Source: an uncultured Opitutia bacterium (GTDB taxonomy: Bacteria; Verrucomicrobiota; Verrucomicrobiia; Opitutales; Opitutaceae). Taken from it: a stretch of 62,350 bases of DNA. Shown piece by piece: positions 14,682 to 39,136 of this stretch (positions within the stretch are counted from its first letter, which is position 1; the number at the start of each line of letters is the position of its first letter). Both the position numbers and the translations under genes were made by a program. Where the stretch lies: positions 1 through 62,350 of the forward strand of contig CAIJFT010000430.1 in assembly GCA_903820035.1 (NCBI GenBank). Direction: 5' to 3'. The notes under the pieces were generated by a model. The model saw only the letters and a list, made by a program, of their open reading frames with translations, was not told the DNA's origin and did no database searches.

Positions 14682-15107
14682 ATGGCTAAGAAGATCCAAG
14701 GTTATATCCGCCTCCAATTACCCGCCGGCGCCGCGAATCCTGCGCCCCCGGTTGGCCCCGCCCTCGGCGCGCAAGGCGTCAACATCATGGCGTTTTGTAA
14801 GGAGTTCAACGCGCGCACCAAAGACCAGAACGGCATGATTTTGCCGGTAGTTATCACGGTGTTCTCGGACAAGAGCTTCACGTTCATTCTCAAGTCTCCG
14901 CCAGCGTCAGTCCTTCTGAAGAAGGCGGCAAATATCGCAAGCGGGTCGGCGAAGCCTAACCAAGACAAAGTTGGAAAGGTTACGAAGAAGCAGCTGCTCG
15001 AGATCTACAACCTCAAGAAGGCCGATCTCAACGCCACGACTCCTGAAGCCGGCATTAAGGTCATCGCTGGCACCGCCCGCAACATGGGCATCGAAGTTAT
15101 CGACTAG
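14682..15107 (+). CDS. rplK: 50S ribosomal protein L11
   Basis: A 141-residue L11 of standard size. The N-terminal domain holds [21 protein letters not shown], and the C-terminal RNA-binding domain ends with [13 protein letters not shown]11 binds the GTPase-associated region of 23S rRNA and helps factor-dependent steps. It is followed by 136 bases with a marked secondary structure before rplA, an unusually long gap for this pair. Confidence 0.97.
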
Positions 15108-15121
15108 TATTTTTTGCGGAC

Positions 15122-15176
15122 ATCGATATCTAGGCGACCGGGGGTGGTGACACCCCTTCGGAGCATTTATATCGAT
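15122..15176 (+). promoter_or_regulatory. Nested RNA stem-loop between rplK and rplA, possible L1 control site
   Basis: ATCGATAT at 15122-15129 pairs with ATATCGAT at 15169-15176. Inside lies CCG plus GGGGTG (15138-15146), a GTGA tetraloop (15147-15150), CACCCC (15151-15156), a TT bulge and CGG (15159-15161). The two helices are separated by an asymmetric internal loop of 8 and 7 bases. Ribosomal protein L1 is known to repress its own operon by binding an mRNA mimic of its rRNA site. The position just before rplA makes that an attractive reading, but the L1 consensus was not compared base by base. Confidence 0.5.
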
Positions 15177-15243
15177 TCCAGCATTCCGTCCAACCACCAC
15201 TCAGCGGGAGTCCTTCCGGACGCAAGAACCGCAAGGAGTCACA

Positions 15244-15942: not shown

Positions 15943-15953
15943 GGAGCCCGACC

Positions 15954-16451
15954 ATGAGAGCAGAAAAACAATACCTGATTTCGGAGGTCGATACGCACCT
16001 CAAAAAGTCCGATTACGTTATCTTGGCTAATTTCACCAAGGTGACTGTTGCGGACACGGCCGAGTTGCGCAAGCGGCTTGCTGTAGAAAAAGCTGAGTTT
16101 CACGTCGTCAAAAACAGCTCGCTCAGAGTCGCCGCGAAGGCGCTCGGTCTGCCTGAGTTTGATTCCGTTCTTACTGGCCCGACGGCGGTAATCGTGGGCG
16201 GTAAAAACTCGGCCGGAGTGGCTAAAGTCCTCAAGAAGTTCTTCGACGAGAAGCAGAAGCTCGAGATTAAACTTGGCGTCATTGACAAGAAGGTGATTAC
16301 GGCTGCCGATCTTTCCAAAATCGCCGACCTGCCACCCTTCGATGCGCTGCGCTCGCAGTTTCTCAGTCTACTCACCAGCAACGCGGCAGCATTCGTGCGT
16401 GTCCTCGATGCCAAGGTCAAAAAGGAGCAGCCCTCTGCTCCGGCCGCCTAA
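15954..16451 (+). CDS. rplJ: 50S ribosomal protein L10
   Basis: A 165-residue L10. It opens with MRAEKQYLISEVDTHLKKSD and carries LRKRLAVEKAEFHVVKNSSL, the 23S-binding part. The C-terminal helix binds L7/L12 dimers to form the stalk. AGGAG lies close before the ATG. The 11-base gap from rplA leaves no room for the long L10 leader found upstream of rplJ in many bacteria, so stalk-protein autoregulation, if present, must act elsewhere. Confidence 0.95.
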   Translation: MRAEKQYLISEVDTHLKKSDYVILANFTKVTVADTAELRKRLAVEKAEFHVVKNSSLRVAAKALGLPEFDSVLTGPTAVIVGGKNSAGVAKVLKKFFDEKQKLEIKLGVIDKKVITAADLSKIADLPPFDALRSQFLSLLTSNAAAFVRVLDAKVKKEQPSAPAA

Positions 16452-16535
16452 CCCTCCCTCCATTTTAATCCTTTTTGCTTGCGCGACCCGTATATCTGCG
16501 CGCCTCGCAAAGCACCAACACCAACGGCTCCGGCT

Positions 16536-16551
16536 AGGGGATACGTCCCTT
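16536..16551 (+). other. Short UACG-tetraloop hairpin between rplJ and rplL
   Basis: AGGGGA at 16536-16541 pairs with TCCCTT at 16546-16551 (one G-U pair) across the tetraloop TACG, a very stable UNCG-type loop in RNA. It lies in the 150-base gap between rplJ and rplL, which otherwise shows no gene. It may mark an RNA processing point that helps raise L7/L12 output over L10; there is no T-run for termination. Confidence 0.4.
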
Positions 16552-16601
16552 AAACGCGTTTCATTTTTCGAAACCGCTAACCGGCTCCAGAAGTCACCAA
16601 C

Positions 16602-16979
16602 ATGAGCAACGTTACTAAAGATCAAGTCATCGAGTGGCTTTCCGGCCAATCGGTTATCGAACTCGCCTCCCTAGTCAAAGACCTCGAAGGCAAGTGGGGC
16701 GTGTCCGCTGCCGCTGCCGTAGTGGCCGCCCCTGCGGGTGCCGCCGCAGCTCCGGCTGCCGAGGCACAGACCGAGTTCACGGTCATCCTGAAGGAGGCTG
16801 GCGCGAACAAAATTGGCGTCATCAAGGAAGTCCGTGCCATCACCGGCTTGGGCCTCAAAGAAGCCAAGGACCTCGTCGAGGGTGCTCCGAAGCCGGTCAA
16901 GGAGAACGCTCCGAAGGCCGAAGCAGAAGACATCAAGAAGAAGCTCGAGGCGGCCGGCGCCAAGGTCGAGCTCAAGTAA
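16602..16979 (+). CDS. rplL: 50S ribosomal protein L7/L12
   Basis: A 125-residue L7/L12. The N-terminal dimerisation part (about 1-34), an alanine-rich hinge (about 35-56) and the C-terminal domain with [20 protein letters not shown] and [20 protein letters not shown] are all normal. L7/L12 is present in several copies per ribosome and recruits translation GTPases. It is separated from rpoB by 188 bases with a strong hairpin, the usual site where only part of the transcripts continue. Confidence 0.97.
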
Positions 16980-17026
16980 TACGAACGCCGCTTGGCGCTT
17001 TCATTCGTACCACTTCCGTTTCAGTC

Positions 17027-17074
17027 GGGACAGGCCGTGCTGCTGCATGGCCTGTCCTTTCCCTTTTCTCTTTT
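17027..17074 (+). terminator. Attenuator-type terminator between rplL and rpoB
   Basis: GGACAGGCCGTGC at 17028-17040 pairs with GCATGGCCTGTCC at 17045-17057 across a TGCT tetraloop, a 13-bp stem with one G-U pair. It is followed by a pyrimidine tract TTTCCCTTTTCTCTTTT up to about 17074. The structure is right for partial intrinsic termination. In E. coli a partial terminator at this exact place makes rpoBC expression lower than that of the ribosomal genes, and the same role is inferred here. Confidence 0.75.
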
Positions 17075-17167
17075 CGTTCGTCCGCTCCGTGGCTCTAGCC
17101 ACCGGCGCGTGCATTGAGGTCATTGCCGCGTCCTTTTCTGTCTCTTAATCTCTACCGGGAAATTCTC

Positions 17168-20947
<3,780 letters not shown>

Positions 20948-20996: not shown

Positions 20997-25154
<4,158 letters not shown>

Positions 25155-25180
25155 TAGTTGGCAGAAGCGCGCCAACGATC

Positions 25181-25213
25181 GAGACCGCGGACATCGTCCG
25201 CGGTCTTTTTTTT
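25181..25213 (+). terminator. Intrinsic terminator after rpoC
   Basis: A perfect inverted repeat AGACCGCGGAC at 25182-25192 with GTCCGCGGTCT at 25196-25206, loop ATC, is directly followed by an unbroken T-run to 25213. It is the clearest Rho-independent terminator in the window and separates rpoBC from the nuo operon. Confidence 0.95.
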
Positions 25214-25246
25214 GCGGCTCCAAAGTGCATTTCACGCGCGAGATCA

Positions 25247-25316
25247 GCCGACGGAATGATGTCGGCAGATTTCTTAAAAGCGACTTGCGCGACACGCAGG
25301 TGCGCCCAAACCTGCG
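25247..25316 (+). promoter_or_regulatory. Two small hairpins in the region ahead of nuoB
   Basis: GCCGAC at 25247-25252 pairs with GTCGGC at 25261-25266 (8-base loop), and CGCAGGT at 25295-25301 pairs with ACCTGCG at 25310-25316 (8-base loop). Both lie between the rpoC terminator and nuoB, a 136-base stretch that must contain the nuo promoter. They could be leader RNA structure or operator half-sites. No sigma-70 consensus stands out. Confidence 0.35.
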
Positions 25317-25349
25317 GCCGATTCTAACCTTCGCCTCACCTGTTCAACC

Positions 25350-25859
25350 ATGGTCACCGCCAACACAGAACTCGGCTACAACAGCAAAGTTGAAGGCGGC
25401 GTGATCGTATCCCGCGCGGACGCCGCTATCAACTGGATCCGGACCAACTCCATGTGGCCGATGCCGATGGGATTGGCGTGCTGTGCGATTGAACTGATGG
25501 CAGTCGGCGGGGCACGTTTTGACATCGCCCGCTTCGGCGCCGAAGTCATGCGATTTTCTCCTCGCCAGTCTGACTGTATGATCGTGGCCGGAACCGTGAC
25601 TTACAAAATGGCTCCGCAGGTTCGCCGGATTTACGATCAGATGTGCGCTCCGAAGTGGGTGATCGCGATGGGGGCCTGTGCGAGTTCCGGCGGCATGTAT
25701 CGCAGCTATTCTACGCTTCAGGGGGTGGATCGCATCGTCCCGGTCGACGTGTACGTCAGCGGCTGCCCGCCTCGGCCGGAAGCCCTGCTCGACGCACTGA
25801 TGAAACTTCAGGCCAAGGTCCGGGCAGAGCCTGCCAGCCGGCGGCTCCTTTCGGCCTGA
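25350..25859 (+). CDS. nuoB: NADH-quinone oxidoreductase subunit B
   Basis: A 169-residue NuoB, carrier of iron-sulfur cluster N2 next to the quinone site. The four cysteine ligands are all present: tandem C44-C45 in [10 protein letters not shown]110 in MGACASSGG and C139 in [11 protein letters not shown]. The ATG at 25350 is used; no Shine-Dalgarno motif precedes it. It is the first gene of the operon; nuoA, which normally comes first, is not found between the rpoC terminator and this gene. nuoC follows 27 bases later. Confidence 0.97.
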
Positions 25860-25886
25860 TCCCTGCTTCATTTCCGCCGTAACTGT

Positions 25887-26537
25887 ATGTCAGTCGAAGT
25901 CCTTACTGCGCTAAAAGCGAAATTTCCCCAAGTCTCCGACCGTCCGTCGGCTGACCATCCGGCGGTTGATGTGCCGCGGGCGGACCTCGTGGAAGTGCTG
26001 CGTTACCTGCGCGACGAGCACGCATTCGATCTGTTGATGGACCTGACGGCGATCGATTGGGCGCAATGCGCCTCACCTCGTTTCACAATGGTCTACCACT
26101 TGCTGTCCACGACCCGCGCCGGTAGTTACATGCGGGTAGCGGTCGCATGCGCGGGCAGTGAAATCGAACCGACATCGCCTAGCGTGGTGCATCTCTGGGC
26201 TGGGGCCAACTGGCATGAGCGTGAGTGTTTCGACATGTTTGGGATCAAGTTTGAAGGTCATCCGGACCTGCGGCGGATTTTGATGTGGGACGGTTATCCG
26301 TATCATCCGCTTCGGAAGGAATTTCCGCTCGCAGGTATCGAGACGGTCCTGCCGGTTGCCGATATTGCCGAGGAGACGGGCGCCAAGGTCATCGCGGCTC
26401 CGATGGCTGGAGGGCCTTTTGTGGCCATCTCTGGCGAGATCAACCTCACCGAGGCTGAACCGCGCGCAAAAGATGAGAGCTGGAGTGACCGCGCCGCCCG
26501 TCCCGATCAGACCGCCCTGCGCCAGGTCAAAGAATAA
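25887..26537 (+). CDS. nuoC: NADH-quinone oxidoreductase subunit C
   Basis: A 216-residue NuoC of the peripheral arm. The family signature is clear: ANWHERECFDMFGIKFEGHP, then LRRILMWDGYPYHPLRKEFP at about 130-150. About 60 residues beyond this core form a charged C-terminal extension of no recognised domain. Not fused to nuoD, which starts 13 bases downstream. NuoC and NuoD together shape the quinone-reaction module at the membrane interface. Confidence 0.95.
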   Translation: MSVEVLTALKAKFPQVSDRPSADHPAVDVPRADLVEVLRYLRDEHAFDLLMDLTAIDWAQCASPRFTMVYHLLSTTRAGSYMRVAVACAGSEIEPTSPSVVHLWAGANWHERECFDMFGIKFEGHPDLRRILMWDGYPYHPLRKEFPLAGIETVLPVADIAEETGAKVIAAPMAGGPFVAISGEINLTEAEPRAKDESWSDRAARPDQTALRQVKE

Positions 26538-26550
26538 CGCGCTGCACCCG

Positions 26551-27795
26551 ATGGCCACCGAATTTACCTATCCCGATAGCGCGGCAAAAGCCGCGGGCGC
26601 CGCACAGGCGGCGCCCGCCGAGTTTCAGACGGAGAAAATGTCGCTATCGATGGGCCCCTCGCATCCTTCCACGCACGGCGTTTTGCGGCTGCAAATGGAG
26701 CTCGACGGAGAGATCCTGACGAAGGCCGATCCCGTGGTTGGTTATTTGCATCGTGGCGACGAGAAGATCGCCGAGAATATGACCTACAATCAGTTCGTGC
26801 CCTACACGGACCGGTTGGATTATCTCGCGCCGCTGGCCAACAACATGGCCTACGCCATCGCGGTCGAGCGACTCGCAAAACTTGAAGTCCCGGAGCGCTG
26901 CCAGGCGATTCGCGTTCTTACCGCGGAGATGGCGCGCCTCTCTTCGCACATGATGGGGCTCGGGGCGTTCGCCCTCGACGTCGGTGCTTGGAGCGTTCTG
27001 CTTTACGCTCTCGAGGAGCGCGAGAAGCTCTACAAGTTGTTCGAGGAACTTACCGGCGCGCGTTTTACGACGAGCTATACCCGCATTGGTGGTGTTACCC
27101 GAGACGTACCGGAAGGTTGGCTCGGCCGCGTGAATGCGTTCTGCGATCAATTCCTTCCGATTCTTGAGGAGATTTTGAATCTCCTCACTCGAAACAAGAT
27201 ATTCATGGATCGCACCGTCGGCGTCGGCGTGATATCAAAGGCCGACGCCCTCACCTATGGTCTCACCGGCCCGAACCTCCGCGGTAGCGGTGTTGCCCTC
27301 GATCTGCGCAAAGATAAGCCTTACTCTGGGTATCAAAACTACGAATTCGACGTACCGGTCGGTACCAAGGGCGATTGCTACGACCGATATCTCGTGCGCG
27401 GCGAGGAGATGCGCCAGTCGGTGCGGATTATCCGCCAGGTGATCGCCAAATTTCCGGGCGGGGCGTGGTATGCGACCGACGCAAAGCGCATATTTGCACC
27501 GCCGAAAGACAAGATCCTCAGCTCGATGGAGGAGCTTATCCAGAATTTCATGATTGTGACGGAAGGTCCCCAGATTCCGCCAGGCGAAGTCTATTTTGAG
27601 GCCGAAAATCCCAAAGGCATTCTCGGCTTCTACATTGTGAGCAAGGGCGGTGGCGTACCGTACCGCCTGAAGATCCGTTCTCCCTCATTCTGCAATCTCT
27701 CCATTATCCCGAAGATCAGCGTGGGATGTCTCATCTCCGACGTTGTTTCAATCTTGGGCTCGCTCGACTTCGTCATGGGCGAGTGCGACCGCTAA
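26551..27795 (+). CDS. nuoD: NADH-quinone oxidoreductase subunit D
   Basis: A 414-residue NuoD, the 49-kDa-type subunit that forms the quinone pocket with NuoB. It includes GPSHPSTHGVLRLQMELDGE with the conserved histidines near the quinone headgroup, GYLHRGDEKIAE, and the C-terminal region ending GSLDFVMGECDR. The ATG at 26551 is chosen because the segment from MATEF onwards is the normal N-terminus; the open frame reaches back 65 codons, but that part overlaps nuoC and has no family similarity. Normal length. Confidence 0.96.
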   Translation: MATEFTYPDSAAKAAGAAQAAPAEFQTEKMSLSMGPSHPSTHGVLRLQMELDGEILTKADPVVGYLHRGDEKIAENMTYNQFVPYTDRLDYLAPLANNMAYAIAVERLAKLEVPERCQAIRVLTAEMARLSSHMMGLGAFALDVGAWSVLLYALEEREKLYKLFEELTGARFTTSYTRIGGVTRDVPEGWLGRVNAFCDQFLPILEEILNLLTRNKIFMDRTVGVGVISKADALTYGLTGPNLRGSGVALDLRKDKPYSGYQNYEFDVPVGTKGDCYDRYLVRGEEMRQSVRIIRQVIAKFPGGAWYATDAKRIFAPPKDKILSSMEELIQNFMIVTEGPQIPPGEVYFEAENPKGILGFYIVSKGGGVPYRLKIRSPSFCNLSIIPKISVGCLISDVVSILGSLDFVMGECDR

Positions 27796-27822
27796 GTGCT
27801 TTCGCCTGCGCCAAACCAGCCG

Positions 27823-28308
27823 ATGAAACTAAAGCCCGAAACGCTGCGACGGATTGACGAGGTCATCCCGCATTATCCGGTCAAGCGGAGTGCGACGCTG
27901 CCGCTGCTGCATTTGATCCAGGAGGATGCGGGCTACATTTCTAGCGAGGCGGTGGAGTGGGTCGCCGCGAAGTTGGAACTGCAGCCGATCAACGTGCTCG
28001 AGGTGGTGACCTTCTACCCAATGTTCCGGCAGAAGCCGATCGGCCGCCGTCATATTAAGGTCTGCCGCACGCTTTCCTGCGCCTTGATGGGGGGCTACAA
28101 GACCTGCGAGTCCTTTGAGAAGGAATTCAATACCCCCCGTGGTGAAGTCTCGGCCGACGGCGAGGTCACGATCGAGTTCGTCGAGTGCCTCGCAAGCTGC
28201 GGCACCGCACCGGTGGTGATGATCGACGACGATCTGCACGAGAAGGTGGACTGTGCGAAGGCGAAACAGCTGAGCGATCAGATCAAAGCCGAGTCGAAAA
28301 AGCGCTGA
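27823..28308 (+). CDS. nuoE: NADH-quinone oxidoreductase subunit E
   Basis: A 161-residue NuoE with a thioredoxin-like [2Fe-2S] domain (cluster N1a). The ligands are C81 and C86 (CRTLSC) and C122 and C126 (CLASC). The ATG at 27823 gives the usual MKLKPETLRRIDEVIPHYP opening; a GTG at 27796 directly after the nuoD stop would add nine residues and cannot be excluded. NuoE pairs with NuoF and NuoG to form the NADH-oxidising module. Confidence 0.95.
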   Translation: MKLKPETLRRIDEVIPHYPVKRSATLPLLHLIQEDAGYISSEAVEWVAAKLELQPINVLEVVTFYPMFRQKPIGRRHIKVCRTLSCALMGGYKTCESFEKEFNTPRGEVSADGEVTIEFVECLASCGTAPVVMIDDDLHEKVDCAKAKQLSDQIKAESKKR

Positions 28309-28316
28309 TACCCGCC

Positions 28317-29669
28317 ATGCCCGCTCCCCAACAACGTCGGATCATTTTCCGACACATCGACGAACCCGGCTATACCAACGATCTCGCGTGCTACGTCCGC
28401 CATGGCGGTTACGAGATGTTGAAGAAGGCGGTCGCGATGGCGCCCGCGGCTCTTATCGAGGAAGTCAAGAAATCCGGCCTGCGCGGTCGTGGCGGCGCGG
28501 GTTTCCCGTGTGGCGTGAAGTGGAGCCTCGTCGACCGCAAGAGTGGCAAGCCGATCTACCTTGTCGTCAACGCTGACGAATCTGAACCCGGCACTTTCAA
28601 GGACCGCTACATCATTCACCAGGATCCGCACCAGCTGATCGAGGGGATTATGATCTCGAGCTTCGCCAACAACGTGAAGCAGGCTTACATTTATATTCGC
28701 GGCGAAATGCCTCACGGCGCTCGGATCTTGGAAAAGGCGATCGCGGAAGCACGCGCAGCTAATCTCGTTGGCCCGAATATTCTCGGAACCGGTTACGGTT
28801 GCGAGATCTACGTGCATCGCGGCGCTGGCGCCTACATCTGTGGCGAAGAAACCGGCCTCATCGAGTCACTCGAAGGCAAGCGTCCGTATCCACGCATCAA
28901 GCCGCCGTACTTTCCGGCCGTGCTCGGACTTTATCAGTGTCCGACGATCGTGAACAACGTGGAGACGCTCTGCCACGTGAAGCACATCGTCGAGATGGGC
29001 GGTGACGCCTATGCCAAGATCGGCACCCCAAACAACACCGGTACGCGCATCCTTTGCGTCAGCGGTCACGTGCAGAAGCCCGGCTATTACGAGTACGAGG
29101 TCGGCACGATTACCCTCGGCGAACTCCTCAACGAGGTTTGTGGCGGTCCGCTGCCCGGCCGGAAATTCAAGGCGGTGATTCCCGGCGGTTCTTCGGCGAA
29201 GATCCTCCGTTTTGGCGAAACCTTCACCTTGAAGAACAAGGACGGTTCCTCGCGCACGCTTACCGTCGAGGACATTCCGATGGACTTCGATACGCTCGCG
29301 GCCTGCGGTACTATGGGTGGTTCCGGGGGCGTCATTGTGATGGACGACTCGGTCAACATGGTTGAGGCACTCGCCAACATCAACGCGTTCTACGCCCACG
29401 AGAGTTGCGGCCAGTGCACGCCTTGCCGTGAAGGCTCGCTGTGGATGAAAAAGATCACAACGCGCATGGTTCACGACCACGCGCGCACGGAGGACGGAGC
29501 GTTGCTCAAGAGCGTCGCCGACCAGATCGCCGGCCGGACTATCTGCGCATTCGGCGAAGCCTGCTCCTGGCCGACGCAGAGCTTCGTTGCGAAGTTCGGC
29601 GACGAATTCAGAGCGTATCCCGAAACCAAGAAGGCCGCGAAGTCCGCGGGCACCCTCGAGCTTGTTTGA
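28317..29669 (+). CDS. nuoF: NADH-quinone oxidoreductase subunit F
   Basis: A 450-residue NuoF, the FMN and NADH-binding subunit. The FMN loop GRGGAGFP is at 57-64, NADESEPGTFKDRYI follows, and the [4Fe-4S] N3 ligands are seen in SCGQCTPCREG plus the later TICAFGEAC cysteine. The ATG at 28317 is 8 bases after nuoE; the longer open frame upstream overlaps nuoE and is discounted. Full family length. Confidence 0.97.
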   Translation: MPAPQQRRIIFRHIDEPGYTNDLACYVRHGGYEMLKKAVAMAPAALIEEVKKSGLRGRGGAGFPCGVKWSLVDRKSGKPIYLVVNADESEPGTFKDRYIIHQDPHQLIEGIMISSFANNVKQAYIYIRGEMPHGARILEKAIAEARAANLVGPNILGTGYGCEIYVHRGAGAYICGEETGLIESLEGKRPYPRIKPPYFPAVLGLYQCPTIVNNVETLCHVKHIVEMGGDAYAKIGTPNNTGTRILCVSGHVQKPGYYEYEVGTITLGELLNEVCGGPLPGRKFKAVIPGGSSAKILRFGETFTLKNKDGSSRTLTVEDIPMDFDTLAACGTMGGSGGVIVMDDSVNMVEALANINAFYAHESCGQCTPCREGSLWMKKITTRMVHDHARTEDGALLKSVADQIAGRTICAFGEACSWPTQSFVAKFGDEFRAYPETKKAAKSAGTLELV

Positions 29670-29678
29670 TTTCCTGAA

Positions 29679-31385
29679 ATGATCGCCACGCCCAAACCCG
29701 ACCTCGTCACCGTCAATGTCGACGGCAAGGAGATCGCTGTGCCGAAGGGCACGAATGTGATCGAAGCAGCTCGGCTGGTCGGCGTGGACGTGCCGTACTA
29801 CTGCTACCATCCGAAACTCTCGATCTCGGGCAATTGCCGGATGTGTCTCATCGAAATGGGCATGCCGGCGGTCGATCCTGCGACGAAGGCGCCGATCATG
29901 GACCCGGCGACGGGCAAGCAGAAAATCAACTGGATCCCGCGGCCGCAAATCGGCTGTGCGACCAACGCCTCCCCCGGCCTTCACATCCGCACCAACACGC
30001 CGCAGATCAAGGACTGCCGCGAGGGAGTGATGGAGTTCCTTCTCGTCAATCACCCGCTCGACTGCCCGATTTGCGATCAGGCCGGCGAGTGCAAGCTGCA
30101 GGAGCAGTCGACCGGCTATGGCCGCGGTTACTCGCGCTTTATCGAGCATAAGAACGTGAAGCCGAAGCGTACCCAGCTCGGTCCGCGGGTTACTCTAGAT
30201 GACGAGCGCTGCATCCTGTGCTCACGTTGCATTCGGTTTTGCAAGGAGGTCGCGAAGGACGACGTGCTCGGCTTCGTCGATCGAGGCAGTTACTCGACGC
30301 TGACTTGCTACCCGGGCAAGGCGCTTGCGAATAATTACTCGCTCAACACCGTCGACATTTGTCCCGTGGGCGCGCTTACGAGCACGGATTTTCGGTTCAA
30401 GATGCGGGTCTGGTTTCTTAAACAGACGAACAGTATCGACACGGAGTCGAGCGTCGGGGCCAACACTGTCGTTTGGTCGCGCGAGGGCGTCATTTACCGA
30501 ATCACGCCGCGCCAGAACGACGGGGTGAATGACACTTGGATGCCCGACAGCGGTCGCGATCTCTACAAGATCGTCCGCGCCAACGACCGGCTCGCCGTGA
30601 TCAAGGTAAACGGTGCCGATGCTTCGCTCGACGAAGCCGTGAACGCCGCCGGTCGGCTATTGCAATCTGCCGCGGGTGCAGTGGCTGTCATCGGCTCGGG
30701 GCGCAGTTCCGTCGAGGAACAATTCCTCACTCGCAAGTTGGCTGACGCCCTTGGCACCTCGACGCAGTTGGTGAGCCGGGTGGGGCAGGGTGACGGCCTG
30801 CTGATTTCCGCCGACCGCAACCCGAACGTACGCGGTGCGCTCGTGACCGGTCTCATCAAGGATCTGCCCACGGCCAAACTTACGTCCCTCGGCGCCGCGA
30901 TTGACGCCGGCAAAGTGAAGGCAGTCGTCGTTGTCGGGGAAGACCTTGCCGCGGCCGGGCTAAGCGCAACGCAGATGGCCAAGGTGGCGATCGTCTATCT
31001 CGGTACGCACGCTAACGCCACCAGTACGGCGGCCCGCGTGGTGATTCCGACCCTTACCGTATTCGAGAAAAGCGGCACGTTCGTGAACCAGCAGTTCCGT
31101 ATCCAAAAATACCTCAAGGCTGTTCCCGGGGTTGCCGGTGCTCAGGACGATCTCCCGGTGCTGGCGCGCCTTGTGGCCGCGGTCGGCGGTCCGATCCTTG
31201 CCGGAGAGCTCCATGCGCTTTGGCGGACGCTTGCGGCGGAAATCGCGGCTCTCGCTCCCATCTCTTTCGCCACACTGCCGGAGGCCGGCCTATTGCTTGA
31301 TGGGACCCCGTACGCGGCAGGTCCGTTTGTGGAGACTGAATCGCTGCACTTTAACCCCGCGGCCAAGCCGGCCGTCACTACCTGA
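29679..31385 (+). CDS. nuoG: NADH-quinone oxidoreductase subunit G (short form)
   Basis: A 568-residue NuoG. The N-terminal [2Fe-2S] ferredoxin domain has C42, C53, C56 and C93. The His-ligated [4Fe-4S] cluster N5 has H125, C129, C132 and C138. Cluster N4 has C178, C181, C184 and C228. After about residue 240 comes a shortened molybdopterin-oxidoreductase-like domain with no metal cofactor motif. The C-x2-C-x3-C pattern of the extra cluster N7 (present in E. coli) is absent. NuoG is often 700-900 residues, so this is a compact version. The subunit passes electrons from NuoF/NuoE towards NuoI. Confidence 0.95.
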   Translation: MIATPKPDLVTVNVDGKEIAVPKGTNVIEAARLVGVDVPYYCYHPKLSISGNCRMCLIEMGMPAVDPATKAPIMDPATGKQKINWIPRPQIGCATNASPGLHIRTNTPQIKDCREGVMEFLLVNHPLDCPICDQAGECKLQEQSTGYGRGYSRFIEHKNVKPKRTQLGPRVTLDDERCILCSRCIRFCKEVAKDDVLGFVDRGSYSTLTCYPGKALANNYSLNTVDICPVGALTSTDFRFKMRVWFLKQTNSIDTESSVGANTVVWSREGVIYRITPRQNDGVNDTWMPDSGRDLYKIVRANDRLAVIKVNGADASLDEAVNAAGRLLQSAAGAVAVIGSGRSSVEEQFLTRKLADALGTSTQLVSRVGQGDGLLISADRNPNVRGALVTGLIKDLPTAKLTSLGAAIDAGKVKAVVVVGEDLAAAGLSATQMAKVAIVYLGTHANATSTAARVVIPTLTVFEKSGTFVNQQFRIQKYLKAVPGVAGAQDDLPVLARLVAAVGGPILAGELHALWRTLAAEIAALAPISFATLPEAGLLLDGTPYAAGPFVETESLHFNPAAKPAVTT

Positions 31386-31387
31386 TC

Positions 31388-31609
31388 ATGCGCTCTATTG
31401 CTTTCGCCGCCGTCGGTCTTGGATTCGTTCTCATGGGCGCCGGCCTGTTTGCGCTCACGTTGCGCAAGCCCAAAAACCAGCCGGCGGTGCCGACAAAGGC
31501 GCAGCAGCGCGAACAGACCCAGCTGGAGGAGGAGAAGAAGAAAATGTACATCGCCGCCGGAGTGAGCGCCGCCGTGGGGCTCGCCCTCATTGTCCTCATG
31601 CTTTTCTGA
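31388..31609 (+). CDS. Unknown 73-residue two-span membrane protein inside the nuo operon
   Basis: Starts 2 bases after the nuoG stop and ends 1 base before the nuoH start, so it is tightly embedded. A hydrophobic segment (about 3-24) is followed by a hydrophilic, charged loop (about 25-51, rich in K, Q and E) and a second hydrophobic segment (about 53-73) ending at the C-terminus. No cysteine and no cofactor motif. I do not recognise the family. The spacing strongly suggests co-translation with membrane-arm subunits, so it may be an accessory subunit or assembly factor of complex I. It is too hydrophobic and too well packed to be a spurious frame. It is not NuoA, which has about 120-150 residues and three spans. 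Confidence 0.75.
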   Translation: MRSIAFAAVGLGFVLMGAGLFALTLRKPKNQPAVPTKAQQREQTQLEEEKKKMYIAAGVSAAVGLALIVLMLF

Positions 31610-31610
31610 G

Positions 31611-32771
31611 ATGGTCGAATTCTACCTTCAGCTTAATCCGGTGGTGCAGGGTGTGCTCAAGGGGCTCGCCGTGATTTTGGTTATTTTCCCCATCGGCGGC
31701 GCCTGTTCGATGGCAGAGCGTAAAGTCTCAGCCTGGATTCAGGGTCGGCCTGGTCCCAATCGTGCCATCGTGCCGTGGGTCGCCTGGATTCCGCTGGTGG
31801 GAACTTTTCTGCAGCGGCTGGGCTTGTTTCACGTCATGGCCGACGGCGGTAAAATGCTTTTCAAGGAAGACGCGCTGCCTGGCCACGTGAACAAGTTCTA
31901 CTTCGTTCTCGCGCCGATTGTCGCCATGATACCTGCGCTCACGACGGTGACCGCCGTGCCGTTCGGTGCGTACCTCGATTCCGCTGGTATGGTCGTGCCG
32001 CTGGTGTTGGCCAACGTCGACATCGGCTTGCTCGCGGTCTTCGCGGTTTCCTCGCTCGGTGTCTACTCGCTGATTCTCGCGGGCTGGGCATCCAATTCAA
32101 AGTATCCGTTCCTCGGTGGTGTTCGCGCCTCGGCTCAGCTGATCTCTTACGAACTTTCGATGACGCTCTCCGTCATTCCGGTCTTCCTTTGGGTTAACGC
32201 GCCGGGCATGGAGCCGACGATGGGACTTGGCCGGGTGGTTGAGTTTCAGAGTCAACCTGGCTTCTGGGGCGGCGCTTGGTTCCTATTCATCATGCCGGTT
32301 TCGGCGTTTATTTTTCTGACGTCGCTGTTTGCTGAAACCAACCGTCAGCCGTTCGACATGCCGGAGTCCGAGGCTGATCTGGTCGGCGGCTTTCACACGG
32401 AGTATGGCGCGTTCAAGTGGGGCTTATTCTTCGTCGCGGAGTACGCCCACATGTTAATTGGCTCCGGTGTTTTCACGCTACTCTTCTTGGGGGGGTGGAA
32501 TCCGCTCCCGTGGATCCCGCTCGCGACGTTCGTTGGCTGGCTCTCGTCGATTCTGCCAATTGCGGGCCATCCAATCTTCGTCGGGGTGCTCTCGATCACC
32601 ATCTTCCTTACGAAGGTGCTCGCGATGATCTTTTTCTTCATGTGGGTGCGCTGGACTCTTCCGCGCTTCCGCTACGATCAGGTCATGGAGATCGGCTGGA
32701 AAAAACTCCTGCCCCTCGCGATCGCGAACCTGCTCGCGTACGCCGTCGGCATCGCGCTGCTTCAGTCCTAA
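31611..32771 (+). CDS. nuoH: NADH-quinone oxidoreductase subunit H
   Basis: A 386-residue NuoH, the membrane subunit that forms the quinone tunnel at the foot of the peripheral arm. It contains ERKVSAWIQGRPGPNR in the first loop, the FAETNRQPFDMPESEADLVG motif in the conserved loop, GGFHTEYGAFKWGLFFVAEY and a C-terminal MWVRWTLPRFRYDQVM. At least eight hydrophobic segments are visible. The ATG at 31611 follows the small membrane protein's stop by one base; a codon 21 bases upstream would overlap it. Confidence 0.97.
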   Translation: MVEFYLQLNPVVQGVLKGLAVILVIFPIGGACSMAERKVSAWIQGRPGPNRAIVPWVAWIPLVGTFLQRLGLFHVMADGGKMLFKEDALPGHVNKFYFVLAPIVAMIPALTTVTAVPFGAYLDSAGMVVPLVLANVDIGLLAVFAVSSLGVYSLILAGWASNSKYPFLGGVRASAQLISYELSMTLSVIPVFLWVNAPGMEPTMGLGRVVEFQSQPGFWGGAWFLFIMPVSAFIFLTSLFAETNRQPFDMPESEADLVGGFHTEYGAFKWGLFFVAEYAHMLIGSGVFTLLFLGGWNPLPWIPLATFVGWLSSILPIAGHPIFVGVLSITIFLTKVLAMIFFFMWVRWTLPRFRYDQVMEIGWKKLLPLAIANLLAYAVGIALLQS

Positions 32772-32785
32772 CTCAGCCACGCGCC

Positions 32786-33328
32786 ATGGCCATCGTCCCA
32801 CTTGAACGCAAGCCGCTCACCTTTGCTGAGCGCACGTACATCCCGCAGATTGTTGCGGGGCTAAAGACGACGTGGAAGCACCTCGTCAGGCCTAAGCAAA
32901 CCTTGGAGTACCCGGAGCAACGGCCTGCGATTCCGGCCGGTTATCGCGGGGTGCCGACGCTCGTGAAGGACCCGCACGGCCGGGAGAAGTGCGTTTCCTG
33001 CCAACTCTGCGAATTCGTCTGCCCACCGAAGGCGATCCGCATCACGCCCGGAGCGATCGCGCTCGACGACCCGACGGGTCACGTGGAGAAGGCACCGCAG
33101 GAGTTCGAGATCGACATGCTGCGCTGCATCTATTGCGGCATGTGCCAAGAGGTGTGCCCCGAGGAGGCCATTTTCCTGCAAAACCAGTTTTCGATGACCG
33201 GCTACACCCGCGAGGAGATGGTCAACCGCAAGGCGCGGTTGTACGAGCTCGGTGGCACGCTGCCCGACACACACTTCAAGTGGGACAAGAAGAAGGCCGC
33301 CGAGGACCACGGCAACGCCCTGCACTGA
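32786..33328 (+). CDS. nuoI: NADH-quinone oxidoreductase subunit I
   Basis: A 180-residue NuoI with two ferredoxin-type [4Fe-4S] motifs (clusters N6a and N6b): C69, C72, C75, C79 and C114, C117, C120, C124. NuoI connects the peripheral electron wire to NuoB. The ATG at 32786 is 14 bases after nuoH; the longer upstream frame overlaps nuoH and is discounted. Length and motif spacing are normal. Confidence 0.97.
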   Translation: MAIVPLERKPLTFAERTYIPQIVAGLKTTWKHLVRPKQTLEYPEQRPAIPAGYRGVPTLVKDPHGREKCVSCQLCEFVCPPKAIRITPGAIALDDPTGHVEKAPQEFEIDMLRCIYCGMCQEVCPEEAIFLQNQFSMTGYTREEMVNRKARLYELGGTLPDTHFKWDKKKAAEDHGNALH

Positions 33329-33344
33329 GCTTCGCATCACCATC

Positions 33345-33860
33345 ATGGGCTCACTTCTTTTCAACGTACTTGCACTGAGCACCCTGATCGCCGCGGCCGG
33401 CGTCGTGGTGAACAAGAACGCCGTCAACGCGTCGATGTGCCTGCTGCTCTCGTTGGTGGGCGTTTCCGGGCTCTTCGTGGCGCTCGAATCCTACCTTCTG
33501 GCGTTCCTGCTGCTACTGGTTTACGCCGGCGCCATCGCCGCGCTGTTTCTATTCATTGTCATGTTGCTCGATACCAAAGGCGATGCCCGGCCGACGCTGC
33601 ACAGGTTGCCTCTCGTCGCGCGCGTCCTCGCGGTCGGGTTGGTCGGCCTCGGGCTCGTCTCTTTCGCCGTCCGCGGACAGCTCGCATCCTCCGACCTAGC
33701 CAAGGTGCCCGCCGTTGGGGCTTCGTTAAAGCTCTACGCTTACCAGCTCTTCACCACTTACCTGCTGCCGGTACAAATCCTCGGTTTCCTGCTGTTGATC
33801 GCGATGCTCGGAGTGATCGTGCTGAGCAAGCGCTTTGAAGGCTTGGAGGACATCAAATGA
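33345..33860 (+). CDS. nuoJ: NADH-quinone oxidoreductase subunit J
   Basis: A 171-residue NuoJ with five hydrophobic segments. The third span carries the conserved [19 protein letters not shown] sequence, including the pi-bulge region used in coupling quinone chemistry to proton pumping. The ATG at 33345 is the first that fits the normal N-terminus; a longer open frame overlaps nuoI. Its stop overlaps the nuoK start (ATGA). Confidence 0.95.
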
Positions 33861-34165
33861 TTCCGGCGACGCTCAACTCCTACCTCTTCGTCAGCGTCGT
33901 GCTGTTCGCCATCGGCCTAGTCGGTGTGCTGGTCCGGCGTAACACCCTGATCGTGTTCATGTGCCTTGAGCTGATGCTGGTGGCCTCGACCCTCGCGCTC
34001 GTGGCGTTCTCTCGCTACAACGGCACGATGGATGGCAACGTCTTTGTGTTTTTCATCCTCACCGTGGCTGCGGCGGAGGTCGCAGTCGGTCTTGCCATCA
34101 TTGTGGCGCTGTTCCGCAAGCGGCAAACAATCCAGCTGGATCAGTTGAACGCGCTGAAAGATTGA
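33857..34165 (+). CDS. nuoK: NADH-quinone oxidoreductase subunit K
   Basis: A 102-residue NuoK with three transmembrane helices. The two membrane-embedded glutamates needed for proton transfer are in place: E38 in MCLELML and E74 in [11 protein letters not shown] (E. coli E36 and E72). The ATG overlaps the nuoJ stop by four bases. Length is standard. Confidence 0.97.
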
Positions 34166-34170
34166 CGCTG

Positions 34171-36075
34171 ATGACGCCTGCCCAACTCGCCATTTCCGTC
34201 CTCGTTCTGCCGCTCGCTTCGGCGGCGGTTATCGCGCTTTTCCTGCGCCGGTCCGGCGGGCTTGCTTCGCTCGTTTCGGTTCTAGCCGCGACCGGCATTG
34301 CCGGTGGGGCGCTCCTGCTCGCTTTCGGGGGCAAGGACGCCCGCTTCACTGCGGCTTCCGAATGGCTCCGCTTCGGTGATTTCGCGATCTCGATCGGCTT
34401 TAAGTTCGACGACCTCGCCGCGCTGATGCTCTCGATCGTCGGCGTGGTCGGCCTGTGTGTCCATGTGTTCTCGCTCGGCTACATGCACGGCGACGCGTCG
34501 CGTGGGCGTTACTTCGGCGGTCTTTCGATCTTCATGTTTTCGATGCTCGGCATCGTTTTTGCCGACAATCTTTTCATGCTGTTCATCTTTTGGGAGCTGG
34601 TCGGTTTCAGTTCCTGGCTGCTGATCAACCATTACATGGACAAGCAGTCCGCAGCGGATGCCTCTAAGAAGGCTTTCATCGTGAACCGTGTCGGCGACTT
34701 TGGTTTCCTGCTCGGCATCCTCTGGTGCCAGGCTCAGTTTGGTACGACGAACCTCGATGCCTTGGCCAAGCTGGTTGAGGGCGGCGCGGTGGCGGCGACC
34801 GCGATTCCGCTGCTCCTCTTTTGTGGCGCGGTCGGCAAGTCGGCGCAACTGCCGTTGCACGTGTGGCTTCCCGACGCGATGGAAGGCCCGACGCCGGTGT
34901 CCGCGCTCATTCACGCCGCGACGATGGTCGCCGCCGGCATCTACATGTTGTGCCGGATCAATGTCCTCATGGTGCCCGACGCACTCTCCGTGATTATGTG
35001 GGTCGGCACCTTCACCGCGGTTTACGCGGCCCTTTGCGCGATCACGCAGAGCGATATCAAGAAGGTTCTCGCGTACTCCACGCTCTCGCAGCTCGGCTAT
35101 ATGGTCGCGGCCTTCGGGCTTGGTTCGGTCAGCAGCACGCACATGCACGGCGATACGCCGCACACGGTTTTGCTCGAGGCCGGCGTGGGGGCGGCGATGT
35201 TCCACCTGACGACGCACGCCTTCTTCAAGGCCCTGATGTTCCTCGGTTCCGGCTCGGTGATCCACGCCTGCCACCACGAGCAGGACATCTTCAAGATGGG
35301 AGGTCTGGCAAAGAAACTGCCGATCACGTTCTTCACCTTCACGATCGGCGTGCTGGCGATCATCGGCATGCCGCTGCTCGCCGGCTTCTTCTCCAAGGAT
35401 GCGATTCTCTTCCTGTCTTACGTCGTCGATAAGCGCGTTTTCGTCCTCCTCGCATTCACCGCAATCCTAACAGCCTTCTATATGGTGCGCATGTGGAAAA
35501 TCGTTTTCCTCGGTCTGCCCCGCAGTGAAAATGCGCACCATGCGCATGAGGGTGGTCTGGCGCTGACCGCGCCGCTCGTGGTCCTTGCCCTGCTTTCCGT
35601 GGTTGGCGGCTACGAGTGGTTCTACGAGAAGGTACTGCGCGGCGCGTTTGAAGGGGTGCTTGAACTCGTGCCGCACGCACACGACACCGACCACACGGTC
35701 ATCCTTGCGACGAGCTTGGCGGTCCTCTTGATCGGGGCGCTGAGCGCATTTGCCCTTTATCGTCCGTCGCCAACCGACACGCTCGCGGAGAAGGCCCCCG
35801 GACTCTTCGGTGCCTTGGTTGCGCTCAAGGGCGCTTTTGACCGTTCCTACGATTATTACGTCGCCAAGATGCAGCAGCGTTTCGCGATGCTGTTGAATTT
35901 TCTCGAGCAGATCTTGCTCGCCGGCGTGATCATCCGCGGACTGGCGGGGATCGTCGGCCTCTTCGGGCTCGGCGCCCGTGCGCTGCACGTCGGTAACGCC
36001 AACGCCTACACCTACTGGTTTCTTTTCGGCGTCGCGGCCCTTTGGGCGGCCGCGGCCGGCGTGTTGATTTTCTGA
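34171..36075 (+). CDS. nuoL: NADH-quinone oxidoreductase subunit L
   Basis: A 634-residue NuoL, the distal antiporter-like proton-pumping subunit with the long lateral helix at its C-terminus. The pumping residues are conserved: glutamate in IFWELVGFSSWLL, lysine in AVGKSAQLPLHVWLPDAMEG, then PTPVSALIHAATMVAAGIYM. The ATG at 34171 is used; a TTG at 34162 overlapping the nuoK stop would add three residues. nuoM follows 7 bases later. Confidence 0.96.
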   Translation: MTPAQLAISVLVLPLASAAVIALFLRRSGGLASLVSVLAATGIAGGALLLAFGGKDARFTAASEWLRFGDFAISIGFKFDDLAALMLSIVGVVGLCVHVFSLGYMHGDASRGRYFGGLSIFMFSMLGIVFADNLFMLFIFWELVGFSSWLLINHYMDKQSAADASKKAFIVNRVGDFGFLLGILWCQAQFGTTNLDALAKLVEGGAVAATAIPLLLFCGAVGKSAQLPLHVWLPDAMEGPTPVSALIHAATMVAAGIYMLCRINVLMVPDALSVIMWVGTFTAVYAALCAITQSDIKKVLAYSTLSQLGYMVAAFGLGSVSSTHMHGDTPHTVLLEAGVGAAMFHLTTHAFFKALMFLGSGSVIHACHHEQDIFKMGGLAKKLPITFFTFTIGVLAIIGMPLLAGFFSKDAILFLSYVVDKRVFVLLAFTAILTAFYMVRMWKIVFLGLPRSENAHHAHEGGLALTAPLVVLALLSVVGGYEWFYEKVLRGAFEGVLELVPHAHDTDHTVILATSLAVLLIGALSAFALYRPSPTDTLAEKAPGLFGALVALKGAFDRSYDYYVAKMQQRFAMLLNFLEQILLAGVIIRGLAGIVGLFGLGARALHVGNANAYTYWFLFGVAALWAAAAGVLIF

Positions 36076-36082: not shown

Positions 36083-37597
36083 ATGAGCCAATTGCCCTTT
36101 GATCCGCTGCTGATCTCCATCGCGATCCCGCTCGCGCTGGCCCTGCTCATTGCGTTCGGCCTGCCCAAGCGCTGGTCGATCCGGCTCGCCTACGTCGCCT
36201 TCGCGGTGCCGCTGCTGATGGCGCTGCACACGTGGTGGCATTTTTCGGCCCAGCCGCAGACAGCTGGTTACGCGTTCCTGACGAATTACACGACGGGGCT
36301 GCAGGGCATCGGAATTTCGCTCAAGCTCGGCCTCAACGGCATCTCGATGCCGCTCTTCGTGCTCGCTGGCATCGTCGGCTTCGCGGCCGGCCTCTACGCG
36401 ATTCGCTCTCAGGCGGAGCGGTTGAAGATTTATCTGATGCTCCTGCTCATCATGCAGGGCGGCTTGATGGGCGTGTTCGCCAGCGTTGACGTCTTCTTCC
36501 TCTACTTCTTCCACGAACTCGCGCTGATCCCGACCTTCATCATGGTCGGCATCTGGGGCGGGCGCGACCGCAGCTACGCGGCGATGAAGCTCACGATCTA
36601 TCTCACCGCCGGTGCGATGATCTCACTCGTTGGCTTGATCGCGCTCTACGTGAAGAGCGGGGCGAACACTTTCGACCTGATCGCCCTCAAGGCCCACCTC
36701 GCGGCGAATCCTCTGCCGGTGACGCTGCAGGAAAATATCTTCGGCCTCCTCGTCTTCGGCTTCGGCATTTTGGTTTCACTCTGGCCGCTGCACACGTGGG
36801 CCCCGCTGGGCTACGGGGCGGCGCCGAGTTCCAACGCCATGCTGCACGCCGGCGTGCTCAAGAAGTTTGGCCTCTACGGTCTCATCCAGGTCGGACTCCC
36901 GCTGCTGCCCGCCGGACTCACCCACTGGGCGCACCCGCTCGCGTGGCTGGCGGTGGTCGGCAACGTTCTCATCGTCGGTCTGATCACCATCGCGCAGCGC
37001 GACCTGAAGCAGATGCTCGGTTACAGCTCGGTGATGCACATGGGTTATGCGTTCCTCGGCATCGCGGCCGGTTCGACCCTCGGCGTCGGCGGCGTGGTGC
37101 TGATGATGGTGGCGCACGGCTTGTCGGTGGCGCTGTTGTTCCTGCTCGCCACGAGTATTTATCAACGCACGCAGACCTTCGCGCTCGACGAGATGGGCGG
37201 CCTCGCTTCGAAGACTCCGGTGCTCGCCGCCTTCTTCGTCTCCGGCACCTTTGCGAGCATCGGTCTGCCGGGTTTTGCAAATTTCTGGGGTGAGCTCACG
37301 ATCTTCATCGCCCTTTGGAAATTCTCACCGTTGATCACCGCTCTGGCGGTCGCGGGCGTGGTGATTTCAGCCGTCTACGGTTTGCGGGCGGCGGCCCGCG
37401 TGTTCTTTGGTCCAGCCACGGAACGCATGGCAGATGTCGCCACGCGAAATCCTCCGACCGATCTCGCCTGGTCGGAAAAGATCCCCGCGCTGATCCTGCT
37501 CTTCTCCCTGCTGTTTGTCGGTTTCTGGCCCAAGTCGATGTCCGAGCCGATCAATGCCGCCCTGACACCCGCCGCCGCGGCGGTCGTTGCCAAATAA
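36083..37597 (+). CDS. nuoM: NADH-quinone oxidoreductase subunit M lacking the TM7 lysine
   Basis: A 504-residue NuoM, the middle antiporter-like subunit. The TM5 glutamate is present (E145 in FFHELALIP), as are the TM8 lysines (K260-K261 in HAGVLKKFGLYG) and the TM12 glutamate region (NFWGELTIF). The TM7 region is different from the family. Canonical NuoM has A-V-K-x-P-x-x-PLHTWLPDAHxEAPT, whereas here residues 225-249 read FGFGILVSLW followed by PLHTWAPLGYGAAPS. The lysine matching E. coli K234 is thus replaced by a hydrophobic residue (about L230) and the PDAHxEAP turn is lost. The frame is open and collinear throughout, so this is not a frameshift. NuoL and NuoN in the same operon keep their lysines. 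Confidence 0.95.
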   Translation: MSQLPFDPLLISIAIPLALALLIAFGLPKRWSIRLAYVAFAVPLLMALHTWWHFSAQPQTAGYAFLTNYTTGLQGIGISLKLGLNGISMPLFVLAGIVGFAAGLYAIRSQAERLKIYLMLLLIMQGGLMGVFASVDVFFLYFFHELALIPTFIMVGIWGGRDRSYAAMKLTIYLTAGAMISLVGLIALYVKSGANTFDLIALKAHLAANPLPVTLQENIFGLLVFGFGILVSLWPLHTWAPLGYGAAPSSNAMLHAGVLKKFGLYGLIQVGLPLLPAGLTHWAHPLAWLAVVGNVLIVGLITIAQRDLKQMLGYSSVMHMGYAFLGIAAGSTLGVGGVVLMMVAHGLSVALLFLLATSIYQRTQTFALDEMGGLASKTPVLAAFFVSGTFASIGLPGFANFWGELTIFIALWKFSPLITALAVAGVVISAVYGLRAAARVFFGPATERMADVATRNPPTDLAWSEKIPALILLFSLLFVGFWPKSMSEPINAALTPAAAAVVAK

Positions 37598-37609: not shown

Positions 37610-39136
37610 ATGAATCTCGAAGCCGTCAAACTCGCCGCCGCGGATAATCTTTGGACCGCCATTCTGCCCGAGCTCACCCTCGCGTGCATCGCATTGTTCC
37701 TGCTTGTGCTGGAGATCGTCCTCCCGAAGCAGCACCACCGCCTTATCCCTGATGTCGCCGCCGCGGGCATTCTCGGTACCCTCGCCGGACTTTGTCTCAA
37801 CTGGCATCCGGCAACGCTCGGGCTCGATACCTTCAACGGTCTCCTGCACCATGGGCTCGCGGGACAGGTGATGCGCGTGTTTTTCCTGATCGCGGCGTTT
37901 CTCGTCTGCGTCTTGGCGAGGGTGAGCCTCGCGAAGCAGCCGATGCCGCGCGTAGAGTTTTATCACATCCTGCTGGTCGTGACCGGGGCCATGATGCTCC
38001 TCGCGCAGAGCAACCACTTCGTGATGCTGTTCGTCGCCCTCGAGACGTTGACCATCGGGCTTTATGTGTTGGTCTCGTATTTCCGTACCAGCGCAGCCTC
38101 GCTCGAAGCCGGGTTGAAGTACCTGGTCATGGGCGCGCTCAGCTCAGGCATCCTCCTCTTCGGTATTGTGCTACTCTACGGTGTCGCGGGCAACCCGGCG
38201 CTGCCGGCGCACACGGCGCAAGCGTTTAATTACAGTGAACTCGCCCGCTTCCTTGCGGCCAACCCGCATCACTTTGTCGCCAGCCTAGGCATCGTCTTCG
38301 TACTCGCGGGTGTTGCCTTCAAGATCGGAGCTTTTCCTTTCCAGATTTGGGTTCCCGACGTCTACCAAGGTGCGCCCACACCGGTCACGGCGTTTCTCGC
38401 GGTGGCGTCCAAGGGTGCTGGATTTGCCGTTTTGCTTTCGTTGTGCGGCCCAGGCGGTGCTTTTGCCTCTTACGGCTGGCTGATCACACCGATCCTCACC
38501 GTGATGGCGGCGGCGACGATCCTCTTTGGCAACATTGCCGCGCTCACCCAGCACAACGTCAAACGGCTCATCGGGCTCTCCGGTGTTTCACACGCGGGCT
38601 TTTTGCTGCTCGGGGTCGTCGCGGCCCGCACGGTGCCGATGGCGGTGGGCGCGATTTATTTCTATCTGTTCGCCTACCTCATCGCTTCGTTTGCGGTGTT
38701 TGGCGTGATGACACACTTGGCGGGGGAGAAAGATGCCGACCAAGAGCTTGAGCATTATGCCGGGTTGGCGAAGGAACGGCCCTTCCTCGCGATGGTTTTG
38801 GCCGTCGGCCTTGGCTCGCTTGCCGGTATTCCGCCCCTTGCGGGCTTCATGGGCAAATTCTTCGTCTTCATCGCCGCCTATCAGGCTGGTGCGCGTTGCA
38901 TGCTCGCGATCGCGGTGGTGGGGGTGGTGATTTCGATCTATTACTATTTCGGGTGGATCAAGGCGGCCTTTTTCGAGTCATGGACGGTATCGACCGCGGC
39001 GAATCAAGATACCGCCAAGCCGGTTCCGACTCCGGTTGGTTTGATTGCGGGCGTGACGCTCGGTGCTCTGGCGCTCGCGTCGCTCGTCCTTGGTTTCTAC
39101 CAAGGCCCGCTCGGGCAGTGGTTGACCCTACGCTAG
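37610..39136 (+). CDS. nuoN: NADH-quinone oxidoreductase subunit N
   Basis: A 508-residue NuoN, the proximal antiporter-like subunit. Conserved pumping residues are seen: glutamate in FVALETLTIGLYVL, lysine in LKYLVMGALSSGI, and lysine in GVAFKIGAFPFQIWVPDVYQ followed by GAPTPVTAFL. The C-terminal part includes SLAGIPPLAGFMGKFFVF. It is the last nuo gene; no clear terminator follows in the 75 bases before the ThyX-like gene, so read-through into it is possible. Confidence 0.96.
   Translation: MNLEAVKLAAADNLWTAILPELTLACIALFLLVLEIVLPKQHHRLIPDVAAAGILGTLAGLCLNWHPATLGLDTFNGLLHHGLAGQVMRVFFLIAAFLVCVLARVSLAKQPMPRVEFYHILLVVTGAMMLLAQSNHFVMLFVALETLTIGLYVLVSYFRTSAASLEAGLKYLVMGALSSGILLFGIVLLYGVAGNPALPAHTAQAFNYSELARFLAANPHHFVASLGIVFVLAGVAFKIGAFPFQIWVPDVYQGAPTPVTAFLAVASKGAGFAVLLSLCGPGGAFASYGWLITPILTVMAAATILFGNIAALTQHNVKRLIGLSGVSHAGFLLLGVVAARTVPMAVGAIYFYLFAYLIASFAVFGVMTHLAGEKDADQELEHYAGLAKERPFLAMVLAVGLGSLAGIPPLAGFMGKFFVFIAAYQAGARCMLAIAVVGVVISIYYYFGWIKAAFFESWTVSTAANQDTAKPVPTPVGLIAGVTLGALALASLVLGFYQGPLGQWLTLR

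Follow-up and report, generated by a model that had tools for sequence, protein, structure and literature searches.

A widespread NuoM lineage of complex I without the TM7 lysine, seen from an uncultured Opitutia bacterium

Introduction

Can the central antiporter subunit of complex I still work as a proton pump when the lysine of its seventh transmembrane helix (TM7) is missing? The question is raised by a nuoM gene in a stretch of 62,350 nucleotides from an uncultured Opitutia bacterium of the Opitutaceae (assembly GCA_903820035.1, contig CAIJFT010000430.1, positions 1 to 62,350 of the forward strand), the whole of which we call the window. In current models the TM5-Glu/TM7-Lys pair of each antiporter subunit is a switch that relays a signal along the membrane arm (PMC11496545, PMC9802314, PMC9271201), and the TM7 lysine of the NuoM subunit is needed in both E. 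coli and Paracoccus (PMC3046159, PMC9802314). The published TM7 Lys mutants have lost activity altogether, not just one proton, and the stoichiometry of Paracoccus variants is unchanged. Since mutations of the central-subunit pair stop the enzyme in model bacteria, the role of the pair there is hard to dissect. The pair rule is already weaker for NuoN, where a 2026 study of E. coli reports full pumping without the corresponding lysine (PMC13073174), and here we describe its natural loss from the central subunit, in four phyla. Our literature search found no title or abstract on this NuoM TM7 Lys loss, and the study of double-NuoM complexes by Chadwick et al. 2018 (ISME J) may already note such a loss.

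Results

A complete nuoM with leucine in place of the TM7 lysine

The nuoM gene (36083..37597, + strand) is a complete open reading frame of 504 codons whose product scores 377.4 bits against the NCBIfam model TIGR01972, well above the curated cut-off of 263.8, and it is therefore a NuoM by homology. Its position is also that of a nuoM, between nuoL (34162..36075, + strand, 637 aa, with a C-terminal arm of three-module length) and nuoN (37610..39136, + strand, 508 aa), and it is the only nuoM of the window operon. The remaining genes, nuoB to nuoK, occupy 25350..34165 of the same strand; NCBIfam confirms C, D, F, G, H, J, K, L, M and N, and B, E and I were assigned from the translated sequence only. 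The operon begins with nuoB right behind rpoC (25154-25350) and lacks nuoA; the two nuoA matches of this genome lie on contigs C229 and C30, the former within a second nuo operon and the latter standing alone (C30:12894-13193). The AlphaFold2 model of the window NuoM has a mean pLDDT of 95.4 (40 aligned sequences), and Foldseek matched it to solved NuoM chains with a query TM-score of up to 0.92.

A preliminary description of this locus, made from the DNA letters, had claimed that this NuoM lacks both the TM7 lysine and the PDAH motif and that NuoL and NuoN of the same operon keep their lysines, which is what we observe. The TM7 stretch reads ...FGFGILVSLWPLHTWAPLGYGAAPSSNAMLHAGVLKKFGLYG... 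in the translation of 36083-37597. Leu230 (codon TTG, 36770..36772, + strand) is the counterpart of E. coli Lys234, and in each of the five HMMER alignments printed, all to solved NuoM/NdhD chains (8qby_M, 6hum_D, 7p61_M, 3rko_M, 6tjv_D), it is paired with the TM7 lysine, with the motif region aligned free of gaps. PDAH is absent, and the NuoL and NuoN motifs are retained as GKSAQLPLHVW and FKIGAFPFQIW, respectively, each with its TM7 lysine. In the AlphaFold2 model, used for helix limits only, TM7 consists of a helix (213-230), a break (231-239) and a second helix (240-246), with Leu230 at the end of TM7a just ahead of the break. Another TM7 lysine, an outcome for which the preliminary description had allowed, does not exist: residues 213-246 contain neither lysine nor arginine. 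From the canonical charge set the window NuoM thus has the TM5 Glu, TM8 Lys and TM12 Glu (E145, K261 and E404), with Leu230 where the TM7 Lys should be.

Leu230 is conserved throughout the class

Homologues of the window NuoM were matched in 96 of 100 family genomes and 110 of 113 class genomes, both counts being among the matches listed, with part of the candidates scored in some genomes; a draw from the whole phylum gave matches in 39 of 115 genomes, mostly class members. Leu230, His255 and Lys260 were each present in all 102 class genomes read, that of the window included, and Lys261 in 101 of them, the exception being a Thr (L111). Five comparisons with Opitutaceae relatives gave dN of 0.11-0.20 against dS of 0.71-1.07, indicating purifying selection. 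Because Leu230 recurs in 102/102 class genomes and dN lies well below dS, it is more than chance or error. An alignment or sequencing artefact, for which we found no support, is contradicted by the gap-free motif alignment to the five solved chains and by the recurrence of Leu230 in 102 class genomes and three further phyla, and its probability is negligible. The loss of the TM7 lysine in the window NuoM is real, old and conserved, and the clade-wide conservation that the preliminary description had proposed to look for is present. As a gene the window nuoM is ordinary; as a natural experiment it is unusual.

The TM7 lysine is missing as well from two loci of a different class of the phylum (L070 and L245), where residues 255, 260 and 261 are Ser, Lys and Gln. 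A MAG titled Verrucomicrobia (L190) encodes an odd NuoM with Met230, Gly255, Lys260 and Ser261. In two family genomes (G016:C14:14726-16255 and G060:C50:175304-176863) the NuoM match is split into two segments that overlap and share a single open frame, a hint of an insertion around residues 270-290 in these two proteins.

TM7-Leu NuoMs of four phyla form one lineage

Occurrence outside the phylum was followed with a DNA pattern and with two homology surveys. The pattern asked for a hydrophobic residue at 230 together with Lys at 260. In a set of 117 loci (loci of other subunits among them) it fitted 103, and in a scan of the species collection it gave at least 116 matches that by record title comprise 97 Verrucomicrobiota, 13 Bacillota, 3 Chloroflexota, 1 Omnitrophota and 2 without a phylum; since the pattern itself demands Lys260, these loci are uninformative on Lys260 frequency. 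In the phylum of Heliobacterium mobile 25 of 61 genomes matched, and 15 of the 25 loci read there were TM7-Leu (8 Met260, 7 Lys260), none of them with a Lys-type NuoM in the same locus; one genome (G289) has a Lys-type NuoM on another contig. In the phylum of a Thermoflexales record 48 of 51 genomes matched, and the 29 loci read comprised 20 with Lys-type NuoM only and 9 in which a TM7-Leu NuoM adjoined a Lys-type NuoM. Loci of both surveys extend about 1.5 kb past the match, so 'adjoining' means within that span, and Pseudomonadota, Nitrospirota and most other phyla lie outside the surveys' coverage. TM7-Leu NuoMs were seen in Verrucomicrobiota, Bacillota, Chloroflexota and Omnitrophota, and named strains that have one include Heliobacterium mobile DSM 6151 and Desulfoscipio geothermicus DSM 3669. 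The Omnitrophota genome (G281) contains two distinct TM7-Leu NuoMs, one with Phe255-Lys260-Thr261 (L133) and one with His255-Lys260-Thr261 (L258).

Copy removal took the alignment from 335 to 308 rows (L080, L103, L114 and L275 were dropped), and L290 yielded no NuoM row. In a 99-row tree built without residues 224-266, all 60 TM7-Leu rows fall on one side of a branch with an SH-aLRT of 99. In a 72-row tree, also with the trait columns removed, the TM7-Leu clade has UFBoot 100 and SH-aLRT 97 and is recovered in 100% of 200 bootstrap trees; this tree took at most 6 rows per group and excluded rows without the TM12 Glu as well as the long-branch rows L283, L286, L104, L106 and L107. In these trees the clade takes in the window NuoM together with the NuoM2 of Chloroflexota and the NuoM2 of contig C229. 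Position 230 is Leu in 249 of 250 lineage rows and Met in one, with all six Leu codons in use. Note that the pattern-scan loci (L118-L233) are included in this codon count and in the NuoL arm lengths given below, and that 8 of them (with L258) are in each tree; they were left out of the residue counts and of the comparison of positions 244 and 260. Since NuoL and NuoN of these loci keep their lysine, we infer by outgroup reasoning that Leu is the derived state at 230, the trees themselves being unrooted.

The lateral path is kept and TM7b and TM8 are changed

Residues were compared between 138 TM7-Leu and 49 TM7-Lys rows, none of them chosen by pattern, and also without L246-L263 and without Lys-type rows lacking the TM12 Glu; the Lys-type set is mainly from Chloroflexota, Bacillota and Verrucomicrobiota NuoM1, together with four solved chains. 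Position 230 is Leu in 138/138 of these lineage rows. Residues kept are Glu145 on TM5 (E. coli Glu144; 36515..36517, + strand; 138/138), the usual central TM8 lysine Lys261 (E. coli Lys265; 36863..36865, + strand; 134/138), His319 (E. coli His322; 37037..37039, + strand; 138/138), His345 (E. coli His348; 37115..37117, + strand; 135/138) and Glu404 on TM12 (E. coli Glu407; 37292..37294, + strand; all 137 rows having the column). His255 on TM8 (36845..36847, + strand), aligned with the TM8 His of NuoL, occurs in 126/138 TM7-Leu rows versus 0/49 Lys-type rows, a difference to be read with the single origin of the TM7-Leu rows in mind. Position 260, on TM8 (36860..36862, + strand), is Lys in 112/138 and Met in 26/138 TM7-Leu rows and is never Lys in the Lys-type rows (0/49). 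Pro232 is mostly replaced by Ser or Gly, position 174 is Leu in 127/138 TM7-Leu rows versus Thr in 48/49 Lys-type rows, and Arg435 is found in 129 TM7-Leu rows versus 5 Lys-type rows. The preliminary description had counted E145 and a K260-K261 pair among the kept residues; that is correct for E145 and K261, but K260 is an extra lysine.

Tyr244 (36812..36814, + strand) aligns with the histidine of TM7b (H248 in E. coli, H246 in Paracoccus). Among the 195 rows compared, His244 is accompanied by Leu or Met at 260 in all 66 cases, and Tyr or Asp at 244 by Lys, Ser or Ala at 260 in 128 of 129. Counted as independent events this amounts to 5 paired changes, or 4 within the lineage, and none in the opposite direction (p of 0.125 and 0.25), so that a link between residues 244 and 260 is suggestive only. 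In L081 and L232 the TM7b position is Asp, rather than Tyr or His, together with Lys260. These patterns bear on the idea that Lys260 takes the place of the TM7 lysine in space, the Glu-Lys pair surviving with a lysine from another helix. Its presence in every class genome read and in most lineage rows, set against its absence from the Lys-type rows, speaks for such a replacement; yet eight Bacillota loci whose NuoM is of the TM7-Leu type only have Met260, and Lys260 tracks residue 244 rather than residue 230, and we regard a replacement as improbable. It would be too strict to require His255 or Lys260 of every lone TM7-Leu NuoM: L071 (also L243; G207:C33, another class), which is of the TM7-Leu type and the only NuoM of its nuo locus, has neither. 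A search for a partner charge change in NuoN or NuoL gave nothing convincing, with two weak columns only (NuoN 379 and NuoL 607).

One NuoM in the window operon, two on contig C229

A further nuo operon of this genome lies on contig C229 (L008, about 5407-17636). Besides NuoL and NuoN it encodes two NuoMs, NuoM1 with the TM7 lysine and NuoM2 of the TM7-Leu type, an arrangement known as '2M complex I' in papers that cite Chadwick et al. 2018 (PMC7117926, PMC9040806). Eight loci from relatives (L234-L241) combine a Lys-type with a TM7-Leu NuoM, which makes nine with C229. The TM7-Leu NuoM is the sole NuoM of its locus in Verrucomicrobiia and in the sampled Bacillota; in Chloroflexota and on C229 it serves as NuoM2, next to a NuoM1 that has the lysine. 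The preliminary description had raised a canonical nuoM elsewhere in the genome as a counter-indication; such a gene exists, but as NuoM1 of a separate operon. That NuoM1 could in principle substitute in the window complex and so make the Lys-less NuoM tolerable, and its being encoded in the same genome gives this account its footing. The C229 operon is, however, self-contained, having L, M1, M2 and N of its own, the window NuoL has the arm length of a three-module enzyme, and among the 113 class genomes (110 of which gave a match) 67 have a single NuoM match at E <= 1e-40, a hand count among the matches listed that a weaker second NuoM would escape; all 47 of those single-NuoM genomes that were read lack the lysine. 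A rescue by NuoM1 is accordingly very unlikely.

Beyond the TM12 Lys, the arm of the window NuoL spans 225 residues; the C229 NuoL has 671 aa in total. Arm lengths are 200-249 in 150 TM7-Leu-only loci, 253-291 in the 9 both-type loci and 220-291 in 28 Lys-type-only loci, and because the last group overlaps both others arm length alone cannot separate the types. By its clade the window NuoM belongs with the NuoM2 of 2M complexes; it has no NuoM1 beside it and no lengthened NuoL arm. The window complex is most likely a three-module enzyme with a middle module of the NuoM2 lineage.

Discussion

In the window NuoM the TM5-Glu/TM7-Lys ion pair cannot form because the lysine is gone, and the lateral proton path is intact. 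In Thermus Nqo13 the Glu-Lys pair is described as tuning the step in which a proton passes from the TM8 Lys to the Glu of TM12 (PMC11496545). The N-side uptake channel of Paracoccus is walled by TM7b and TM8, with an essential TM7b His246 (PMC9802314) that aligns with Tyr244 of the window NuoM, and simulations of Nqo12 put the NuoL-type TM8 His in the uptake wire. The gene product would be a functional central antiporter module, from an old NuoM lineage of complex I that lost the TM7 Lys once. Protons would be conducted along Lys261 - His319/His345 - Glu404; cytoplasmic uptake may be re-routed over TM8, with His255 as a stepping stone and Lys260 as a further one where the TM7b His became Tyr. 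Glu145 has no lysine partner, and therefore the gate would be set by something else, candidates being the Lys260-Lys261 pair, the neighbouring NuoN through its terminal Lys, and Glu145 itself through protonation. The window operon itself appears built for three antiporter subunits, and the NuoM2 of double-NuoM complexes comes from the same lineage.

It had been proposed that the enzyme pumps fewer protons or routes them differently. Re-routing fits the changed residues of the TM7b/TM8 uptake channel, and judging from the residues the window NuoM most likely remains a pump, its uptake re-routed and its gate a different one. That the window complex I yields fewer protons is possible but so far unsupported, the lateral path residues being kept. 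Its extreme form is a spacer, a module that no longer pumps in an enzyme moving one proton fewer per NADH. The need for this lysine in E. coli and Paracoccus speaks for a spacer, but a spacer would have no use for the central Lys, bridging His and terminal Glu that are kept in nearly all lineage rows, and the published mutants fail as a whole instead of losing one proton; we consider this unlikely.

On the available sequences the explanation that we favour, and hold to be reasonably probable, is jointly that of a working central module with proton conduction kept, uptake re-routed over TM8, a changed gate and a three-antiporter operon. Against it count L071, without His255 and Lys260 though the sole NuoM of its locus, the lack of a convincing partner change in NuoN or NuoL, the requirement for the same lysine in the two model bacteria, and the few independent changes (p 0.125-0.25) behind the 244-260 link. 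That the widespread lineage as a whole represents a coupled, fully pumping complex I without the central ion-pair switch, its gating and uptake moved to TM8 (His255, Lys260/Lys261), has in our estimate slightly less than an even chance. If full pumping is true, the TM5-Glu/TM7-Lys pair would not be a general requirement of the central pump. The TM7-Leu branch of NuoM is a natural test of proton pumping by complex I.

Compared with canonical NuoM/ND4/Nqo13 (E. coli, Paracoccus, Thermus), the window protein is alike in fold, in its position between nuoL and nuoN, and in the TM5 Glu, TM8 Lys, two His and TM12 Glu. It differs in that its lineage is without the TM7 Lys, has mostly lost the TM7 Pro (Pro236) and has gained His255 and Lys260, with the TM7b His changed to Tyr in the window. 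With the NuoM2 of 2M complex I (Chloroflexota, C229) it shares the clade and Leu230, whereas in its operon a NuoM1 is lacking and the arm of NuoL is shorter; the NuoM2 of Chloroflexota and Verrucomicrobiota mostly has Met260 and retains the TM7b His, in contrast to Lys260 and Tyr244 of the window NuoM. Finally, it resembles NuoL/ND5/Nqo12 in having a TM8 His in the same column (IHAA versus LHAG), which we take to be that of E. coli NuoL His254. NuoL, however, has the TM7 Lys and no TM8 Lys, and the window protein scores as a NuoM.
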